DNA from: Chloroflexota bacterium | GTDB taxonomy: Bacteria; Chloroflexota; Dehalococcoidia; Lucifugimonadales; UBA3495 | Reading direction: 5' to 3' | Length of the DNA stretch: 64,000 bases | NCBI GenBank assembly: GCA_028873965.1 | Contig: JAPPMU010000056.1 | Span: 1-64,000, forward strand | Shown: in pieces, positions 3,985 through 26,937 of the stretch | How the letters are laid out: every line of letters begins with the position of its first letter | Numbering within the stretch: position 1 is the first letter of the stretch | Made by a program: the position numbers and the translations under genes | Notes under the pieces: generated by a model | The model's database searches: none | Told to the model about the DNA's origin: nothing | Seen by the model: only the letters and a program-made list of their open reading frames with translations

Positions 3985-4015
3985 GACGCCCGCCCGAATC
4001 TGAACGGCGGGCGTC
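3985..4015 (+). terminator. intrinsic terminator after GMC copy 1
   Basis: GACGCCCGCC and GGCGGGCGTC form a 10-bp stem with an 11-base loop, followed by a short T-containing stretch (TCGTTTG). It lies 25 bases after the GMC stop codon. Confidence 0.65.
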
Positions 4016-4051
4016 TCGTTTGACAGCAGCAGACAAGGAGACACGAGCGCC

Positions 4052-4264
4052 ATGAAGTGGGAATACTGGGTCGACAAGATGCCCATCAGGTCCGGAGGGT
4101 TCTTCGGGAACGGCCCGATGAACGTCGACGCAGTGGACGAGGCGTTCCTCAACGAACGCGGCGCGGCAGGATGGGAGCTGGTGTCCGCGATGCCCCTGTT
4201 CATACCCCAAAATCCCACCGACTGCTTCGTGTATTACTACTGGAAGCGGCCGGTTGCGGGGTAA
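4052..4264 (+). CDS. DUF4177-like small protein
   Basis: This 70-residue protein starts MKWEYWVDKMP and contains NERGAAGWELVSAMP, the pattern of DUF4177 proteins, in which the motif GWELVS is typical. AAGGAG lies 11 bases upstream. No signal peptide or membrane segment is visible. DUF4177 proteins have no established function. It sits alone between a terminator and the NACHT gene. Confidence 0.75.
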   Translation: MKWEYWVDKMPIRSGGFFGNGPMNVDAVDEAFLNERGAAGWELVSAMPLFIPQNPTDCFVYYYWKRPVAG

Positions 4265-4415
4265 CGCGCCCGACTGCTTTCCCGCACAGAATGCGGGCTG
4301 TCTCATCGAATAGCTCCGCGTGATTGACAGTCCGGTTAGGGCGGGGTAGACACGTACCATACCAACAGGATTGGAAAGCATCCTGTAATCTCGGGTTCCA
4401 TTTGAGGGGGCGGCT

Positions 4416-7220
4416 ATGCCTTTCGTGAAGACGCTCGCCAAGTTTGCTGGCTCGGTCAATGTTGGAAAATTGGCCAGCTCTTCAGGTACGGTTATTGATA
4501 TCCTGGGGCTCATGTCCGGCGGAGGCGGGATTGCGGTTTCAGTTGGCGCCGGCGCGCTGGTTGGAGGCGTTGTAGGATTCGCAGGAGGGGTAGCTGCATC
4601 CCAAATGATGCGACGGTGGTCCAAAGATGGCGGTGGGGAGATGCCGGCGCACTTATCTGCGGAATTGCAATCTACCCCACCGGAAAAGGTCACAAAAATC
4701 TTTGAAGTTTTTGCTGACGAGGTCAACCAAAGGGCGACCGCCGCTTTGGATGATGCGTTGGCAGATCTGATGGATAGTCCCGATTGGGATCAAGACAAAG
4801 CCCGGCTTGATGCTGCGGTGACAGAATGGAGCCGAAATCGCAAGGAGGGGGCTGGCAGCCCGCTGGACCATGCGGAAACGGTCCAAGTTCTGATGTCCCT
4901 CATTCGCAATTTGCGCGAAGCCAAATATCGTGAGCTCTTTGCCGAACATCACCGCGAAGTACTCTCCCTTGACCGCCCGGACTGGTGGCGGGTGGAAGAT
5001 GTTTTCATTCGCTTGCAAGCTGAGCGGAGGGAGCCCGGCGAATTGACCGACCTGGAATCCGACGAGTCCGGCGAGACGGTCCACAAGCCGGAAGTACTGG
5101 ATTTTCGAGGCAACACACCAGTCGAAGTTGAAGACACGCTGCGCAAGTCCGGCAACCTGGTCATCCTCGGCGAACCGGGATCCGGGAAGAGCATCTTGCT
5201 CCGCTTCTTGGCGGCATCCTGTGGCGAATCTGAGTCCAATGAGGCGCTATTGCCGGTTCGCCTCCGCTTGAGAGACTATGCCGACAGCCGGAAAACGCTT
5301 ATCGCAGAAAGCGCGGCGAAATTCGCGGAATCCGATCTACAGCTGAAGATGCCCAAGAATTTCTTTGAACATGCCCTTAAGACTGGTCGCTGCCTGGTCT
5401 GCCTGGACGCTCTGGACGAAGTTCCATTGGGAGAGCGGCGGAGAATAGTCAAAAACGTGAGTCAGTTGGCGGGCAACAATAGCGGCAACCGTTTCATTGT
5501 TACTTCCCGGATTGCCGGGTACGACGAACTGCCCCTCAACCCGAAAACATTCACGCGCTACGTCGTCCAGCCCATGGACGATGACGGCATCCGCGCTTTC
5601 ATCGACCACCTGAGCCCTGACGATTCGGAACGCGCCCAAAGCCTGTGGGACGTTGTGGATACGAACGCACACATCAAGTCCTTGGTGTCCAACCCGCTGC
5701 TGATGGCGATGCTCAACGAGGTTTATCAGGATGATCAAGAAGGATTGCCATTGAACCGAGCCAAACTTTATGAGCGGGTCGTGGACTTCCTGGTGGAGGA
5801 CAAGGATGACGCGGGTAGGAAGATTGATGATGACGGGCACCCAAGGCACAAAATGCTTCTCACCGCGATAGCGTGCAGCTTGCATAACGAAAACCGTGAA
5901 ACCCTCGGCAGGGAGGAACTGGAGGAGCTAGTCTTCAATGTACTGCTGGAATCCCAGGGCACAACAGAATCCCCAACCCGGGACCAGCGGCTTCAAATAT
6001 TCCAGGAAGCGGACGCTTTCATCGAACGTGCTGAGCGACGCACCGGCTTGCTGGTGGAAGCGCACCCCGGCAGTGACGTCTTCGGGTTTGTACACTCCAC
6101 CTTTCGGGAATATCTTACGGCGGCGGACATCCGTGACCGACATCTCCCCTACGGACTTTACCGTGAGGAGTGTTGGGAAGAGATCAAAAACCACTTGACG
6201 GACGCCCGCTGGCGGGAGGTCATCCTGCTGCTCCTCACCAGCTTCGAAGAACGCTACTGCACTTACCTTACCAAAAAAATCTTGGTCGCCGGCGACGAAA
6301 ACTTCCACCAGCCGAATGTATCGAGACTGCCTACGCATCTGCAGTTGGCCGCTGATGCCCTGGCCAACCAGGCGCCGATGTCGCCTGAGTTGCAACAAGA
6401 TGTTGTAGGCCGACAACGTTCTCACGGTAGTATGCATGTATTTGTCGCCACTTTGGGAGGTTTAAAGCATTTGCCTGAGATTGTTGTTCCGGAGCTAACC
6501 GCCATCGCCACGGATCCGACGGTTGACGCTAGAACTCGCGAGTTTGCGGCGCTGAGGCTGGCGGAGATGGGCGAAAGGGATACGGCGATACCAGTTCAAA
6601 CCGCCATAGCCGCCGACCCGGCGGTTGACACTTTGGTTCGCCTGCATGCGGCTCGAGAGTTGGCGAATGAGGGCGAAAGGGATACGGCGATACTATCTCT
6701 AACCGCCATCGCCGCCGACCCGACGGTTGACTACACTCCTGATCGCCTGGATGCGGCTCAGGCACTGGCGGACATGGGTGAAAGGGATGCAGCGAAAACT
6801 GCGTTGGCTCAGTTAGCACAGGACACCGCGATGCCCGCGGATCTCCGCGGGCGAGCCGGATGGCTTTTAGGGCAGCTGGGCGAAGCTCAGGCCGCCCTAA
6901 AAGCTTTGATTGACGTTGTGGAAGACCCGGCTGCGGGTGCAATGGATAAAGTCAGGGCCACTGGCGCAATTAGAAAGCTCATAGGAAAAATGCTTGCTTT
7001 ATTGGGCGACACGGAGATGGCCGCAGCCCAGTTGACCTCCGTAGCCTATAATGCGAATGCCTACATGGAGGACCGGATCGAGGCGGTGAAAATTCTAAAC
7101 GATTTGGGCGACGAAGCAGCGGCGAAAACCGCCCTGCAAACCATCGCAGATGACGAGACGGTATCCAACGCCAACCGAGGGAACGCACGCGACGCCCTCC
7201 GAAAATTGAACGAGCAATAG
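4416..7220 (+). CDS. NACHT-domain STAND NTPase with HEAT-like repeats
   Basis: This 934-residue protein has three parts. Residues about 25-62 form a glycine-rich hydrophobic stretch (GGGGIAVSVGAGALVGGVVG) that could be a membrane or pore-forming segment. The NACHT ATPase follows, with Walker A GEPGSGKS (252-259), Walker B LVCLDALDE (327-335) and the sensor-like VTSR (362-365). After a helical region with the NACHT-associated VHSTFREYLTAADI motif, residues about 690-930 are 34-35-residue HEAT/armadillo-like repeats, some almost identical in DNA. Such STAND proteins act as signal-sensing switches; bacterial NACHT proteins (bNACHT) include antiphage NLR-like immune proteins. A TTGACA at 4324 may be part of its promoter. 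GC content is visibly lower than in the neighbours, suggesting transfer. The trigger and the effector action are not known. Confidence 0.9.
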   Translation: MPFVKTLAKFAGSVNVGKLASSSGTVIDILGLMSGGGGIAVSVGAGALVGGVVGFAGGVAASQMMRRWSKDGGGEMPAHLSAELQSTPPEKVTKIFEVFADEVNQRATAALDDALADLMDSPDWDQDKARLDAAVTEWSRNRKEGAGSPLDHAETVQVLMSLIRNLREAKYRELFAEHHREVLSLDRPDWWRVEDVFIRLQAERREPGELTDLESDESGETVHKPEVLDFRGNTPVEVEDTLRKSGNLVILGEPGSGKSILLRFLAASCGESESNEALLPVRLRLRDYADSRKTLIAESAAKFAESDLQLKMPKNFFEHALKTGRCLVCLDALDEVPLGERRRIVKNVSQLAGNNSGNRFIVTSRIAGYDELPLNPKTFTRYVVQPMDDDGIRAFIDHLSPDDSERAQSLWDVVDTNAHIKSLVSNPLLMAMLNEVYQDDQEGLPLNRAKLYERVVDFLVEDKDDAGRKIDDDGHPRHKMLLTAIACSLHNENRETLGREELEELVFNVLLESQGTTESPTRDQRLQIFQEADAFIERAERRTGLLVEAHPGSDVFGFVHSTFREYLTAADIRDRHLPYGLYREECWEEIKNHLTDARWREVILLLLTSFEERYCTYLTKKILVAGDENFHQPNVSRLPTHLQLAADALANQAPMSPELQQDVVGRQRSHGSMHVFVATLGGLKHLPEIVVPELTAIATDPTVDARTREFAALRLAEMGERDTAIPVQTAIAADPAVDTLVRLHAARELANEGERDTAILSLTAIAADPTVDYTPDRLDAAQALADMGERDAAKTALAQLAQDTAMPADLRGRAGWLLGQLGEAQAALKALIDVVEDPAAGAMDKVRATGAIRKLIGKMLALLGDTEMAAAQLTSVAYNANAYMEDRIEAVKILNDLGDEAAAKTALQTIADDETVSNANRGNARDALRKLNEQ

Positions 7221-20001: not shown

Positions 20002-20583
20002 TCAATTGACGGTGATGACGCCACACGCCACCCGGCTGCCGGTATTTTCCTCTACGGCGCCGTAAATCTGCGGCTTTTCGTAGATAACGATGGCTGCGCC
20101 GTCGGCGTCGAATAGTGAGTGGTCGTGGCCCGTAAGGAGGGTGAACCCGTCGGTTACGAAATCGGCGCGGGCGGACCCATCGCGATGGGCGTAGAAGTTG
20201 GGGAGGTCACCGCCGTGTTCTCCGTGAACCGGATCACGCTTCCAGTTGGGGTGGACGAACCCAGCCCGGGAAGGCTCGACCCCGAAATGATCACCAGAGG
20301 CGGTGAAGTCGGGAGAGCAACTTCCCACGGCGTGAACGGCAACGGCGTGACCGCCCGGCGCAAACCCGCTGACATCCAGGGCAACCACCACGACGTCGTC
20401 CTGTTGATGGAACGTGACCGTACCCATTGCATCGCCGGACTGAGACACCAAAGACGCTGTAGCGGTGGGGTAAGTGTGCGTCGACGCGTCTCGATTGGTC
20501 ATCAGGAATATTAGCACTAGGATGGCGACGATCGCGGCAGCAATGAACGCCACAAGTATCCCGGTGGTGACGTTGCGAGTCAT
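20002..20583 (-). CDS. Cu/Zn superoxide dismutase-like protein, membrane anchored
   Basis: This 193-residue protein has one N-terminal membrane anchor (residues 7-28) and an extracytoplasmic SOD domain. Family features are HAVAVHAVGSCS (79-90), SGDHFGV, HGGDLPNF (123-130) and SRVACGVI, with the disulfide pair Cys89/Cys187. The zinc-side ligands (His99, His111, His123, Asp126) appear kept. Two copper ligands are lost: the first His of the HxH pair is Ala82, and the late His (VIH in active enzymes) is Tyr168. This resembles the copper-deficient YojM type known from Bacillus. It is therefore probably not a normal dismutase; a zinc or copper binding role is possible. It lies next to the zinc uptake genes. 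Confidence 0.82.
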   Translation of the reverse strand: MTRNVTTGILVAFIAAAIVAILVLIFLMTNRDASTHTYPTATASLVSQSGDAMGTVTFHQQDDVVVVALDVSGFAPGGHAVAVHAVGSCSPDFTASGDHFGVEPSRAGFVHPNWKRDPVHGEHGGDLPNFYAHRDGSARADFVTDGFTLLTGHDHSLFDADGAAIVIYEKPQIYGAVEENTGSRVACGVITVN

Positions 20584-20879: not shown

Positions 20880-23222
20880 TTACCGCAGCATTTGGGCCAA
20901 CTGATCCGCGTTGGACCGCATCATGCTGATGTAATCCGGGAATTCGTCATCGGGCAGCGAGCGGATGATGCCGACCTGGATGCCGGTATCCCGGGCAACC
21001 TGAGCGAGAGCATCGGCAGAGAATTGAGGTTCCGCGAACACGGCGGGCAGGCCCTTGTGCTCCACCAGTTCCAGGACGTTGGCGATGTCGTCAGGGGAAA
21101 CGTCCTCCGCGTGGGCGCTGACGAATGCCTGCACTTCCACGTCGTAGCGTTCGCCGAAGTATCCGAAGGCGTCGTGGAACGTGACCATCACCCGGTGGTC
21201 CGCGGGTATCTGTGCCAGGGTCTCGGCGATGTAGGCGTCCAAGGCCTCCAGTTCCTCGATGTATGCCGCCGCATTGTCCAGATAGGTTGCTGCGTTGGAT
21301 GGGTCCGCCTCGACCAACCCATTGGTGATCTGGTTGACGTAGTGGACCACCAGGCGCGGGTTCTGCCAGAAGTGGGGGTCGCCCTCCCCGTGGTCGTGGC
21401 CCGCGTGGTCATCGTGGCCGTGGTCATCGTGTCCTTCTTCCTCGTGGTCACCCTCGCCCAGGATGCCGACGAAAGCGATCTTGGTGGGGGTACCGGAGAT
21501 TTCCCAGTGGTTCACCTCTTCCAGGTCGTGGGCGTCGAGGGCGATGACTTCGCCGGCTCCGGAGTTGGTGATGAAGATGTGCCCGGGAGCGGTGGCGACG
21601 TGGGGCCGTGCCCAGAAGCCGGGATCGATCTCATCGCCCAGGACGTCGGATGACGACGCCAGCAGGTCCAGGTCGTGGGCCTCGTACAGGCGGATCTCGC
21701 CGTCGCTCATGATCACCACCAGCAGCTCGCCGTCGTGGCTGAGGGCCACCTGGATGGGGCGAAGAGCCTCGGTGGCCGGTATCAACTGATCCATCTCGCC
21801 CTCTTCCGGCTCGACGACGTACAGTCCCACAGCGGAGCCCAGGGCGAAAAAGTGGTCGAGCCCGTCATACCCCCAGATGGAGGTGAGGCGGAAGTCATCG
21901 GGCGAGCCCGCCGGCGCGGAAATGAAAGCATCCTCGTACTCGCCGTCGTGGGCTTCGAGCATCAGCGCCCCGCCGGTGCAGCCGAAGACGGCCATGTGGC
22001 CGTTGCCGGCGTCGCCGTGGAGATCGGGGCAGCCTTCGGCGCTATGGAGGACGTTGCCGTCCAGGTCCCAGATTTCGGCGCCGATGGGCAGGCGGTATTC
22101 CTCGGGGTTCTGGGCATAGTTCGGGTGCTGGAGGGACACGGCGAACAGGTCGTCTTCCAGCGGTATCACGGCGCCGTGGTGGGGGCCGGCGTTCATCCTG
22201 ATCGGCGCGTAGGATGCTCCTTCTTCTTCCAGTTCGTGCTCGTTGATCAGCACGAAGTCACCGGAGCCGTCGTAATACACGGTGGCCCACTCACCGCCGA
22301 CATACATGTGAACGGGGCGGTCGCCGGACAGGTCGATATCCAGAGTGGACACGTCGCGTTCGACCAGGTCGAAGTGGTCTCCGTGGGCCTCCAGGTAGAT
22401 GCCGCCGTCGATGATGTTGACGGCGTTGGCGTCGGATGAGACGGCGACGGCGAAGCGCCCGCTCTGGGTGGGATAGATGCGACCGGCACGGGAACCCAAG
22501 TCGAACTCATTCTGGTGGACATGGCCGGTTTCCAGATCGATGACCGAAAGGTCACCGGTCTCCCCGTCGCCGATCAGCAGACGGCCGGCGAGTTCGGCGC
22601 CGTGTTCGTCTTCGTGTTCCATCTCGTGGTCGTGTCCTTCGGGGAAGGGCAGTTCGACCAGCTCCTGGGGTTCCAGGCCTTCCGACGCGATCACACGAAC
22701 GGTGTCGCCGGAGGCAGCATTTTCGATCAGGTCTTCCACCTGGGAGGAAAGCCCTGCGCCGTTGCTGACGACGAGGTCGGCTTCCGCGATGCGCACGCTG
22801 TCCCGGGGCGTGCTCTGCCAGGTATGGGCGTCGGCGCCCGCTGCGACCAGCGTGTCCACCTGCACCAAGTCACCGCCGACCTGTCGCACGAGGTCAGCGA
22901 GCACGACGTTGCCGGCGACCACATTGACCGGCTCACTTTGAGTAGAACCGCCGGTCGAGGCGGCCGGCGTTGCCGGTGACGTTGACGATACTGGCGCGGC
23001 GGCTGGCACTGACGCAGGCGCGGCGGTCGGGTCGGGAGATGCGGCTGCGGGTGGTGCGGAACCTGCGGCGGAAGAAGCGCCGGACGGAGGGAGGTCCGGT
23101 TCTTCGCCTCCGCAGGCCGTCAGCAGCAGCGCGAAAGCCGCCAGCGCGATGAGGAGCGCCAGGGCCGGCCGCAAATGGAAAATCCCGGTTACGAGTACAG
23201 GTCGTCGACAAGGTAAGTTCAT
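20880..23222 (-). CDS. ZnuA-type zinc-binding lipoprotein with inserted AztD-like beta-propeller
   Basis: This 780-residue protein is a cluster A-I metal-binding ABC lipoprotein split by a large insertion. The signal peptide ends in a lipobox LLTAC (Cys37). After a Pro/Ala/Ser linker the ZnuA N-lobe runs at about 98-192, with the ligand-type His133 in GADAHTW. At the position of the usual His-rich loop (197-207, GHDHEMEHEDEHG) a propeller of about 380 residues begins (212-589), with AztD-like blocks HGDHFDL, GPHHGAVIPL and AEGCPDLHGDAG. A second His-rich loop (592-612) follows, then the ZnuA C-lobe (615-780) with His617 (DPHFWQNP) and His683 (VTFHDAFGY). In aztABCD systems AztC (binding protein) and AztD (periplasmic zinc chaperone) are separate; here they seem fused. 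The start at 23222 has GGAGGGA upstream. No znuB/znuC genes are adjacent. Confidence 0.85.
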   Translation of the reverse strand: MNLPCRRPVLVTGIFHLRPALALLIALAAFALLLTACGGEEPDLPPSGASSAAGSAPPAAASPDPTAAPASVPAAAPVSSTSPATPAASTGGSTQSEPVNVVAGNVVLADLVRQVGGDLVQVDTLVAAGADAHTWQSTPRDSVRIAEADLVVSNGAGLSSQVEDLIENAASGDTVRVIASEGLEPQELVELPFPEGHDHEMEHEDEHGAELAGRLLIGDGETGDLSVIDLETGHVHQNEFDLGSRAGRIYPTQSGRFAVAVSSDANAVNIIDGGIYLEAHGDHFDLVERDVSTLDIDLSGDRPVHMYVGGEWATVYYDGSGDFVLINEHELEEEGASYAPIRMNAGPHHGAVIPLEDDLFAVSLQHPNYAQNPEEYRLPIGAEIWDLDGNVLHSAEGCPDLHGDAGNGHMAVFGCTGGALMLEAHDGEYEDAFISAPAGSPDDFRLTSIWGYDGLDHFFALGSAVGLYVVEPEEGEMDQLIPATEALRPIQVALSHDGELLVVIMSDGEIRLYEAHDLDLLASSSDVLGDEIDPGFWARPHVATAPGHIFITNSGAGEVIALDAHDLEEVNHWEISGTPTKIAFVGILGEGDHEEEGHDDHGHDDHAGHDHGEGDPHFWQNPRLVVHYVNQITNGLVEADPSNAATYLDNAAAYIEELEALDAYIAETLAQIPADHRVMVTFHDAFGYFGERYDVEVQAFVSAHAEDVSPDDIANVLELVEHKGLPAVFAEPQFSADALAQVARDTGIQVGIIRSLPDDEFPDYISMMRSNADQLAQMLR

Positions 23223-23261: not shown

Positions 23262-23345
23262 CAGATACGATGTATCAATTAATATTGATTGATGATAAGC
23301 AGTATCAACAACATCTCCTAAACGGTATCGAGTATCATTTGCTAC
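23262..23345 (-). promoter_or_regulatory. AT-rich operator region upstream of the zinc-binding lipoprotein gene
   Basis: This AT-rich gap holds repeated GATAC/GTATC words: GATACGATGTATC (about 23264), AGTATCAAC (about 23301) and ACGGTATCGAGTATCAT (about 23323). The same words occur upstream of the Fur-family gene. They are candidate binding sites for that regulator. This is inference from repetition, not from a known Zur consensus. Confidence 0.4.
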
Positions 23346-23397
23346 CGAAAGCGATAGCAAATATCAACTGTGCCTACGAAAAAACCGGCAGGTAGGT

Positions 23398-23865
23398 TCA
23401 GCAGTCGGCGCACTGGCCGCAGCGGCCGTACACTTCCAGCCAATGCCCGCTCATTCGGAACCCGGCGGCTATGGCGGCTTCGCGGAGCATGTCCTCTACG
23501 TCGCAGCCCTCGAGATCCGCCGAAGCTCCGCATACGGCGCACAGCAGATGATGGTGGTGTCCCTGGTGGCTGAGCTGGTAACGCAATTCGCGGTCTTCCA
23601 AAAGGACCCGGCAAACCTGATCGGTTTCCACCAGCAGGCGCAAGCCACGGTAGACGGTGGCCCGTCCCACGCAGGGCAAAGAGGCGCAGAGTTCTTCCGC
23701 GGTGAAAGGCCGGCCCTGGGCGGCGACGGCGCTGATGACCAGCCGCCGGGGTTCGGTGTCCCGGTAACCCAGATCGCTCAACTGAGCGATTATGTCGTCC
23801 ACCACTGCGGCGGAGCGAGGTCGGGGGTGCTCGTGTCCGGAATGCCTGAGCGTCGCAGTAGTCAT
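23398..23865 (-). CDS. Fur family metalloregulator, probably Zur
   Basis: This 155-residue protein is a Fur-family repressor. The winged helix holds GRATVYRGLRLLVE (67-80) for DNA binding. Metal-site features are HQGHHHHLLCAVCG (100-113), with the first CxxC of the structural zinc site, and the C-terminal CGQCADC. It lies directly upstream of the zinc-binding lipoprotein gene on the same strand, which supports a Zur role rather than iron or peroxide sensing. Its own leader holds TGATAC-N13-GTATCA, consistent with autoregulation. Confidence 0.88.
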   Translation of the reverse strand: MTTATLRHSGHEHPRPRSAAVVDDIIAQLSDLGYRDTEPRRLVISAVAAQGRPFTAEELCASLPCVGRATVYRGLRLLVETDQVCRVLLEDRELRYQLSHQGHHHHLLCAVCGASADLEGCDVEDMLREAAIAAGFRMSGHWLEVYGRCGQCADC

Positions 23866-25416: not shown

Positions 25417-26856
25417 CTAGTCGGCCGCCGTGGCCAGGCGCTGGATTTCGGCGGCGGCTTCGTCGGCAGTGTCGGCCCATGCCGCCCGGGCCTGGGCCAA
25501 AAGCTGGCGCGACGCGTCGGGGTTGCCCTGGACCGCTTCCGCTTCCAAACGGCCCATCCAGTAGGTGTCCCGCACCGACGAGCGCCGGGACAGCCGCTCG
25601 TCGAGCATGGCCTTGGCTTCGTCGTAGCGGCCGGCGCGGATGTAGGTCTCGAGCAGGGTGTCCTCGAAAACCTCGCGTTGGGCGTGGCTGCCGCCGATGC
25701 GGGCCAGCATGGGATAGGTTGGACCCATGAGGTCGGCGGCTTCGTCGTAGTCGCCGGCGGCAAAGGCGGCGGCGCCCAACGCGATGGGCAAGACCATCTC
25801 ACGGGACAGATCGTCGCCCTTCTCGCCCTGGACCTTTACCCGGTCCACGAACTTTTGGGTCGACTCCGCGTCGCCGGCGCCGGCGAAGGCCAGCGCGGCG
25901 TGGCAGTCGCGGAAAGCCGGTCCCGGAGTCTCGGCAGCCGGCAGAGCCATGTCCCGCACTTCGTCCCAAGGCTTGCCCGGCTCCTCGCCGGAGTAGATCT
26001 GCAACCGCCACATCAACGAGGCCGCGTCCTGCAGGTTGGCGAGGTTGCGCGCCTGCACGCCGGGCCGGATGTGGGTTTCGTAGAGGTCAAGGGCCTGGCG
26101 GTACTTGCCCTGGGCCAGTTCAAAGAGGGCCAGGTGCCACGACAGGTGGGTATTGTACGACGCTCGCCGGTCCCAGCCATCCAGCCAGTCGCCGAGCCAG
26201 CGACCGCCGTTGGCCGCGTCGCCCTGCTCGAAGTAGGAGTGGGTCACGGAGTGGCTGGCCACGGCGTTCTGCGGGTTTCCCTCCAGGGAGCGGGTGGCCA
26301 GGTCCATGGCCTTCTCGGGCTGGTTGGTTTCGTGGTGAGCGAAGGCGTACTGGCCGAGGAAAGCCCAGTCGTCGCCGTTGGCCGGCGCGACCTTGCGCAT
26401 CATAGCCATCAGGTGATTGGGGAAGTCCGGGACGCCGGCTCCGAAGCAGCCCAGCATGTAGAGACGCTGGGCGACGCGCATGGCCAGGGTGTCCGTGGGG
26501 AACTCGTCCAGGTGCTCGTGGACCAGGCCGATGGCCTCGGTACCCTTGCCGTGGGTGAACGAGTGGACGATCCGGGCGATCTGCTGCTCTTCGCGGGAGG
26601 CGCCGGCGGAAAGTTCCACGCCCTTTTCGGCGGCGGCTCGGGCGGCCGGCACGTTGGTCTGCAGGTGCAGGACGTACGCCTGGACGACGTGGGCCATGGC
26701 GAAGCCCTCGTCGGCCTCCAGCGCCGCCTCCAGCTTAGCATCGGGGCCGTAGTTCTGAGACAGGACAAGGTCGAGGCCTTCCTGGTAGAGGTCGGCCGCG
26801 GCCGGGGAGTTGGTGGTGACTGTCAACCCGTTGCGGCTCTTCAGCATCGCGCACAT
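25417..26856 (-). CDS. tetratricopeptide-repeat protein
   Basis: This 479-residue protein is built of TPR-like helical pairs throughout, for example NQPEKAMDLATRSLEGNPQN and GRYDEAKAMLDERLSRRSS. No signal peptide or enzymatic domain is seen. It resembles the large cytoplasmic TPR38-type proteins found next to amine or amino-acid metabolism genes. AGGAGGG lies 6 bases before the ATG. It is a single gene on the minus strand, convergent with FmdB. Function is unknown. Confidence 0.8.
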   Translation of the reverse strand: MCAMLKSRNGLTVTTNSPAAADLYQEGLDLVLSQNYGPDAKLEAALEADEGFAMAHVVQAYVLHLQTNVPAARAAAEKGVELSAGASREEQQIARIVHSFTHGKGTEAIGLVHEHLDEFPTDTLAMRVAQRLYMLGCFGAGVPDFPNHLMAMMRKVAPANGDDWAFLGQYAFAHHETNQPEKAMDLATRSLEGNPQNAVASHSVTHSYFEQGDAANGGRWLGDWLDGWDRRASYNTHLSWHLALFELAQGKYRQALDLYETHIRPGVQARNLANLQDAASLMWRLQIYSGEEPGKPWDEVRDMALPAAETPGPAFRDCHAALAFAGAGDAESTQKFVDRVKVQGEKGDDLSREMVLPIALGAAAFAAGDYDEAADLMGPTYPMLARIGGSHAQREVFEDTLLETYIRAGRYDEAKAMLDERLSRRSSVRDTYWMGRLEAEAVQGNPDASRQLLAQARAAWADTADEAAAEIQRLATAAD

Positions 26857-26937
26857 CGTTCGCCCTCCTGATAACGGTTATCGAGCTATATTGGGGTCAA
26901 GATTACCACAGATTGTTGCCACGAAAGCAGGTGGCCT

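Follow-up and report, generated by a model that had tools for sequence, protein, structure and literature searches.

A surface protein probably involved in zinc capture in some uncultured bacteria carries an AztD-homologous insert within its metal-collecting loop

In the AztABCD system of Paracoccus denitrificans, the zinc-binding protein AztC and the metallochaperone AztD are encoded by separate genes (PMC5387054). AztD has two zinc sites, of which site 2, built by the N- and C-terminal strands of the protein, is the one reported to hand zinc to AztC; association of the two separate proteins is the slow step (PMC6689063), and the D-loop is essential for transfer (PMC7463823). How metal passes between a chaperone and an import binding protein has been hard to study because the complex is transient. 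A fusion of chaperone and binding protein has a precedent in the AdcA protein of Streptococcus (PMC7858048). In this work, we analyzed a gene located at positions 20880-23222 (-) of a 64,000-nucleotide stretch of DNA from a Chloroflexota bacterium (hereafter, the window), for which an earlier note had proposed, from the sequence alone, a zinc-binding lipoprotein with an AztD-like propeller inserted in its His-rich loop.

A single open frame with AztC-like lobes and an AztD-homologous insert

Positions 20883-23222 (-) translate to 780 amino acids with no internal stop, followed by the stop codon at 20880-20882. As read from the sequence, the protein starts with a signal peptide ending in a lipobox-like LLLTAC with Cys37 (23112-23222, -), and an Ala/Pro/Ser/Thr-rich linker comprising residues 38-96 (22935-23111, -). 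The N-lobe of the binding protein (residues 97-188; 22659-22934, -), with the metal ligand His133, is followed by a first His/Asp/Glu-rich loop (residues 189-211; 22590-22658, -), the 376-residue AztD-homologous propeller (residues 212-587; 21462-22589, -), a second His/Asp/Glu-rich loop (residues 588-614; 21381-21461, -), in which His593 lies about where AztD has its C-terminal ligand, and the C-lobe (residues 615-780; 20883-21380, -), with the ligands His617 and His683. The Pfam family ZnuA (PF01297) matched in two stretches flanking the insert with 258.3 bits against a cut-off of 29, and the best NCBIfam match of the lobes was AztC (NF040870), also in two stretches (E 2.7e-59), although its 200.9 bits did not reach the curated cut-off of 350. 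In addition, the fourth AztC ligand, Asp279, is in our reading not clearly conserved. Notwithstanding, the three binding-protein His were found in every row with data.

Within the insert, Pfam gave only sub-threshold WD40 matches (best E 0.0022), whereas the NCBIfam family AztD (NF038015) matched residues 219-585 over profile positions 3-354 of 356 (E 2.5e-34). The score of 118.6 bits is below the curated cut-off of 400, and we refer to the insert as AztD-homologous. Searching the PDB with the insert alone retrieved the AztD entries 6cmk (E 7.1e-30) and 6ck1 (E 3.4e-29), the next match being YncE at E 0.57; the insert is therefore AztD rather than a plain YVTN or WD40 propeller. In agreement with this, a propeller-only model had AztD at Foldseek ranks 1-9 (best E 3e-18, TM about 0.54), although this model, built with 8 rows, reached a pLDDT of only 58 and was used for Foldseek ranking alone; the eight-bladed propeller fold is not established by it. 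The motif HGDHFD (residues 280-285; 22368-22385, -) contains the counterparts of the AztD site-2 ligands H99, H102 and D104 (PMC6689063), which were kept in 36 of 36 fusion rows and in 7 of 7 more. The site-1 ligands H124, H167 and H218 are all present in the window protein but the site was incomplete in 3 of 43 fusion rows (genomes G112, G302 and G400 of our sample), and the disulphide cysteines C214 and C231 correspond to Cys398 and Cys415, conserved in 36 of 36 and 7 of 7 rows.

We considered whether this architecture could result from an assembly chimaera or a frameshifted fusion of two genes, since the source genome is a 70-contig assembly with 7.3% contamination, one relative (G134) is split over two frames and one (G003) is flagged with a stop. 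This explanation was rejected: an 85% identical second copy lies elsewhere in the same genome, the architecture is a single frame in many other genomes, including single-contig assemblies, and the lobes on both sides of the insert agree far better with each other than with the insert. By our tally the fusion occurs in 29 of 147 genomes of the order (three of them imperfect), in seven other genomes of the class and in one of another class. Five insert-less relatives show the empty site; three of them have a His-rich loop there, but two (G093 and G051) have short loops with few or no His, indicating that a His-rich loop is not a universal landing site. Genome G070, moreover, carries a nearby insert-less copy with lobes 77% and 80% identical.

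Genomic context and the possible zinc relay

A Fur-family regulator gene (23398-23865, -; PF01475, E 2.2e-18) lies directly upstream on the same strand, although by profile it is not specifically Zur. GATA-N5-TATC palindromes, candidate Fur/Zur operators, occur 4 times in the window against 0.21 expected, and three of them (23264-23276, 23294-23306 and 23353-23365) lie within 102 bp upstream of the gene. The second one, with its flanks TGATAAGCAGTATCA, is one of four such 15-mers found in the 3.88-Mb genome; none was found in the control, and one precedes each fusion copy. Thus, the AztD identity, the position in the His-rich loop, the Fur-family neighbour and the upstream repeats described in the earlier note all hold up. 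An ABC-3 permease lies next to 12 of 31 fusion loci, AztB-like by NCBIfam in the one tested (locus L010), while Pfam gave nothing for several neighbour frames (two at locus L055, one at L024 and one at L087).

The window copy has no adjacent transporter genes, and the next gene downstream on the same strand encodes a Cu/Zn superoxide dismutase (20002-20583, -; PF00080, E 2.7e-27). This could suggest that the orphan copy serves another job, for example supplying zinc to this neighbouring surface enzyme, but we regard it as very unlikely: relatives with the same kind of lobes sit beside an ABC-3 permease (G094 and G146), the genome keeps an unlinked AztB-like permease 73-76% identical to those of G146, G094 and G130, and the window SodC was in none of the neighbour clusters of three or more loci examined.

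Taken together, these results point towards a cell-surface zinc-binding lipoprotein of a Fur-family-regulated AztAB-type importer, with the AztD metallochaperone built into the flexible D-loop of the AztC-like binding protein, an explanation to which, including the evolutionary exchange described below, we assign a probability of about 0.7. We infer that the propeller catches zinc, at site 1 in the channel and site 2 at the base formed by its N- and C-terminal strands. Because both termini are tied into the D-loop, site 2 would be held next to the binding-protein cleft, and zinc would pass intramolecularly from site 2 to the His133/His617/His683 site and on to the permease; the tether would remove the slow association step of the separate AztC/AztD pair. 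This relay remains an inference in the absence of measured zinc binding or transfer, zinc rather than another metal is inferred from ligands and family, and the geometry is argued from published AztD only, as an AlphaFold2 model of residues 95-780 built with 11 rows (pLDDT 48) was too poor to show the two sites facing each other and was not used. Alternatively, the propeller might be a zinc buffer or store that raises local zinc without handing it directly to the lobes, which would take it from solution. A storage or tuning role has been suggested for AztD site 1, both sites being described as labile (PMC6689063), only the ZnuA-like domain of AdcA is necessary for import (PMC7858048), and the many loop His would favour buffering. 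However, the His, His and Asp ligands of site 2, the transfer site, are unaltered in 43 of 43 fusion rows while site 1 is broken in 3, and the insertion point is the loop needed for AztD-AztC transfer, which makes this possibility unlikely. If the relay operates, a single polypeptide could give a stable transfer complex for structure and kinetics, and the occurrence of like propellers in lobes only about 35% alike limits what the interface can require.

Discordant histories of lobes and propeller

Remarkably, and not noticed in the earlier note, the lobes and the propeller have different evolutionary histories. Lobe and propeller trees reject each other in AU tests, with breakpoints in the two loops, and the permease beside 11 of the lobes follows the lobes (rho 0.96) rather than the propeller (rho 0.45). 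Some controls advise caution: (i) the two halves of the propeller reject each other's own trees (dlnL 109 and 127), (ii) the second half mildly rejects the joint propeller tree (dlnL 57, AU 0.0035), (iii) the N- and C-lobes reject each other's own trees (dlnL 50 and 39), and (iv) for C-lobe data on the joint lobe tree AU is 0.055, with two other measures just excluding it. AU p-values therefore overstate small differences, and our case rests on the much larger differences between lobes and propeller. Unequal rates, with a slow propeller and fast lobes, could be invoked because propeller identity exceeds that of the lobes by more than 25 points in 108 of 741 pairs. However, the reverse occurs in 28 of 741 pairs, as between G019 and G078 (lobes 73/67, propeller 37), and single-contig genomes show it both ways; together with the conflicting topologies and the behaviour of the permease, this led us to reject rate differences alone.

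Altogether, these results suggest that the propeller, with parts of its loops, has been exchanged, or inserted more than once, as an in-frame cassette in divergent binding-protein scaffolds, which would be a clear case of domain replacement inside the loop of a transport protein. Repeated independent insertion of similar stand-alone AztD genes into the same loop, rather than exchange between existing fusions, is a tentative alternative: a stand-alone AztD lipoprotein exists in the class, and the binding-protein tree forces at least three changes between insert and no insert, but only one stand-alone form was found in the class sample and its place in the tree is marked unsure. The present data do not decide between both routes, which give the same protein. 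It is tempting to speculate, with about even odds, that the propeller behaves as a plug-in chaperone cassette that has moved in frame between at least three divergent scaffolds and a stand-alone lipoprotein, the His/Asp/Glu-rich loops at its borders serving both as metal-collecting linkers and as the repeated DNA through which it is exchanged or lost, so that an intramolecular zinc relay would be repeatedly built and unbuilt. In this regard, 20 of 35 fusions have a run shared between the first and second loops in the top 5% of same-gene controls, which is suggestive only.

Comparison with described systems

The window protein shares with the P. denitrificans AztABCD system the AztC-like binding protein, the AztD-like propeller with its site-1 ligands and three of its site-2 ligands, an AztB-like permease and a Fur-family gene nearby, but here AztD sits inside the D-loop of AztC in one lipoprotein. 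The stand-alone AztD lipoprotein of the same class (genome G398, locus L096, 1135-2679) has a propeller 66% identical to the embedded one of G078, with the same ligands, in its own lipoprotein-like frame with a His/Asp-rich linker and without binding-protein lobes. The anchored-repeat ABC transporter substrate-binding protein TIGR03772, zinc- and Zur-regulated in Corynebacterium (PMC6711530), is also a cluster A-I binding protein carrying extra sequence before the C-lobe, which starts at profile position about 311 of 486, although this extra part is probably an actinobacterial surface repeat rather than an AztD propeller. Finally, AdcA likewise joins a zinc chaperone and a cluster A-I binding protein in one lipoprotein, with a His-rich loop at the interface (PMC7858048). 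There, however, the chaperone is ZinT, a different protein appended at the C-terminus by an 11-residue linker and not nested in the loop, whereas the window protein ends with the C-lobe, no ZinT family appeared in the Pfam or NCBIfam tables up to E 1, and the AdcA model matched only in the lobes.

Architecture and occurrence of the gene

The minus-strand frame 20880-23222 encodes 780 residues without an internal stop, arranged as a lipoprotein signal with Cys37, an Ala/Pro/Ser/Thr-rich linker, an N-lobe (residues 97-188), a His/Asp/Glu-rich loop, a propeller (212-587), a second such loop and a C-lobe (615-780). Pfam ZnuA matched the two lobes with 258.3 bits against a cut-off of 29. Among the NCBIfam models, AztC was the best (E 2.7e-59, in two stretches), and AztD covered residues 219-585 over 3-354 of 356 profile positions (E 2.5e-34). 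Neither NCBIfam curated cut-off was reached, so we describe an AztC-like binding protein with an AztD-homologous domain rather than assigning it to either model.

We further investigated the identity of the middle region. Searched alone, it found only the AztD structures 6cmk (7.1e-30) and 6ck1 (3.4e-29) with significance, the next match being YncE with an E value of 0.57, and Pfam showed only sub-threshold WD40 matches there. A propeller-only AlphaFold2 model was partial (pLDDT 58); notwithstanding, Foldseek ranked AztD chains 1 to 9 (E 3e-18 to 1e-15), with the first other chain at 1e-8. The published AztD ligands (PMC6689063) map to His280, His283 and Asp285 (site 2, the transfer site) and to His305, His349 and His402 (site 1), with the disulphide cysteines at 398 and 415. 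Across 36 aligned fusion proteins, site 2 was complete in 36 and the cysteines in 36, whereas site 1 had lost residues in those of genomes G112 and G302. Seven further fusions keep site 2, and one of them (genome G400) has lost two site-1 residues.

The fusion is not an artefact. A second copy, 85% identical, lies on another contig of the same genome (the two copies being on contigs C19 and C48). The estimated contamination of this genome is 7.3%, but a relative assembled as a single contig (G142) also has two copies, so both may be real. Of 147 genomes of the order searched with the whole protein, 29 hold the fusion by our tally, in 12 families. Three of these are imperfect: G134 is split over two frames, G003 is flagged with a stop and G063 is cut by a contig end. 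G126 shows only fragments and was not counted. A scan of genome contigs gave ten loci, named as Dehalococcoidia, SAR202, Chloroflexota or Chloroflexi assemblies, seven of which cover the fusion; one of them (locus L008 of G134, 4001-6332) is split over two frames between N-lobe and propeller, which may reflect decay or a sequencing error. A profile search of 201 genomes of the phylum gave eight with an AztD match: the window's own, G302, which is of another class and holds a full fusion, G240, which does not, and five weaker matches (E 1e-4 or worse). In 119 genomes of the class, 11 matched: the window's own, seven outside the own order with both lobes around the propeller, G398 with a stand-alone AztD lipoprotein, and two weak ones (G365 and G381). 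The stand-alone lipoprotein of G398 (locus L096, 1135-2679, +) has a His/Asp-rich linker and lies downstream of a frame that, by our reading, resembles a cation efflux protein.

Insertion site and discordant histories of lobes and propeller

Five insert-less relatives show the empty site. G130, of the same genus, has lobes 62% and 75% identical to those of the fusion of genome G094 and a His/Asp-rich loop where the propeller would be. G014 and the second copy in G070 have long His-rich loops, but G051 has a short loop with a few His and G093 a short one with none. Genome G070 carries a fusion and, about 300 bp downstream, an insert-less copy with lobes 77% and 80% identical, whose loop DNA matches both border loops of the fusion. 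At locus L064 (4655-8403, -), a neighbouring pair of closely related binding proteins, one with and one without the propeller, provides a natural with/without comparison. The loop in question is the one that in AztC (the D-loop) is essential for receiving zinc from AztD (PMC7463823), and genetics in Paracoccus also points to AztD and the D-loop acting together (PMC7731109).

Lobes and propeller do not share the same pattern of similarity. N-lobe, propeller and C-lobe identities were 35%, 77% and 34% for the window against G019; 73%, 37% and 67% for G019 against G078; 37%, 60% and 35% for G096 against G078; and 35%, 78% and 36% for G416, from another order, against G078. Of 741 pairs among 39 sequences, the propeller exceeded the lobes by more than 25 points in 108 and the reverse held in 28, so unequal rates cannot explain the mosaic. 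On 32 sequences, lobe data rejected the propeller tree (dlnL 458) and propeller data rejected the lobe tree (dlnL 1406), while N-lobe and C-lobe data were each compatible with the joint lobe tree by the AU test (0.111 and 0.055), although for the C-lobe two other measures just excluded it. Some of the controls were unfavorable: N- and C-lobe rejected each other's own trees (dlnL 50 and 39), and the propeller halves lost 11 and 57 units on the joint propeller tree (the 57 being significant, AU 0.0035) and 109 and 127 on each other's own trees, against 716 and 749 on the lobe tree. The AU test is thus sharp, and there may be some recombination or noise inside the propeller too; what carries the case is that the lobe/propeller differences are several times larger. 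Identity switches at residues about 195-212 and 590-620, that is, in the two loops. Furthermore, among 11 fusions with an adjacent permease, permease identity followed the lobes (rho 0.96) and not the propeller (0.45). The pattern also holds between single-contig genomes (30/68/33 for one copy of G142, G142a, against G003, and 61/39/55 for G003 against G103). The binding-protein tree needs at least three changes between insert and no insert on well-supported branches, with the caveat of long branches, and the stand-alone propeller of G398 grouped among embedded ones in a quick tree, its place being unsure. Exchange between existing fusions and repeated insertion of stand-alone AztD genes are not told apart by these data.

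Genomic surroundings and candidate regulatory sites

A frame clustering with the window's Fur-family gene lies upstream on the same strand in 17 of 31 fusion loci examined, several of them with short flanks, and an ABC-3-type permease frame lies downstream in 12 of 31. The Fur family was assigned by Pfam in the window only. The permease was assigned by Pfam in loci L010 and L062 and by NCBIfam (AztB-like) in L010, the rest by BLAST. An ABC ATPase precedes the permease in at least L062, an insert-less locus, and L050. The window copy has neither, and is followed by SodC. However, its genome keeps an unlinked AztB-like permease on contig C54, 73-76% identical to those of G146, G094 and G130 and only 30% identical to the genome's other permease, the one beside an ordinary ZnuA; no matching palindrome was found near the unlinked permease. 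Just downstream of it lies a CDF-family cation efflux protein (locus L024, 5474-6796, -; ZitB-like by NCBIfam, below its cut-off) with a long His/Asp-rich N-terminal repeat.

GATA-N5-TATC occurs 4 times in the window against 0.21 expected. The longer TGATA-N5-TATCA occurs at four places in 3.88 Mb against none in the reversed control, one before each fusion copy. Of the two others, the one at C23:4205-4219 (locus L087) lies at the start region of a family-5 ABC solute-binding protein gene (PF00496, L087 2277-4211, -), followed by a binding-protein-dependent permease frame. As a Ni/dipeptide-type ABC operon is also up under zinc limitation in Paracoccus, this may be a zinc-complex importer. The other, at C43:92820-92834 (locus L088), had no clear zinc-related neighbour by eye and may be due to chance. 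The shorter motif lies within 150 bp before, or in the first 120 bases of, the open frame in 14 of 31 fusion loci and 3 of 4 insert-less ones. Besides, GATAACGGTTATC (window 26870-26882) sits about 14 bp before the start of a TPR-repeat gene (25417-26856, -), without evidence of regulation. That the metal is zinc is inferred from family and ligands, and the regulator is not specifically Zur by profile.

Inferred relay and comparison with known systems

In AztD, site 2 sits on an extension made by the N- and C-terminal strands and a blade-2 hairpin, and only site 2 hands zinc to AztC (PMC6689063). Tying both termini into the D-loop should put site 2 next to the cleft. Published kinetics make association of the two proteins the slow step (PMC6689063), which the tether would remove. 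Thus, although none of these steps was measured, we infer a built-in relay in which the propeller catches zinc, site 2 passes it to the cleft and the cleft delivers it to an AztB-type permease. The retention of site 2 against the occasional loss of site 1 is the main sequence evidence for transfer rather than storage.

In a search of plasmids, Paracoccus, Klebsiella and Thermus records have AztD-like and binding-protein genes annotated as separate genes under one match (the AztD-like gene of Thermus annotated only as hypothetical), and in Phyllobacterium and Deinococcus the binding protein is annotated next to an unannotated matching stretch. No fusion was seen among the three records inspected, and no report of AztD inside AztC was seen in our literature searches. 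Chaperone and binding protein in one lipoprotein is known from AdcA with ZinT (PMC7858048); new here, as far as those searches reach, are the nesting in the D-loop and the conflicting histories of cassette and scaffold.
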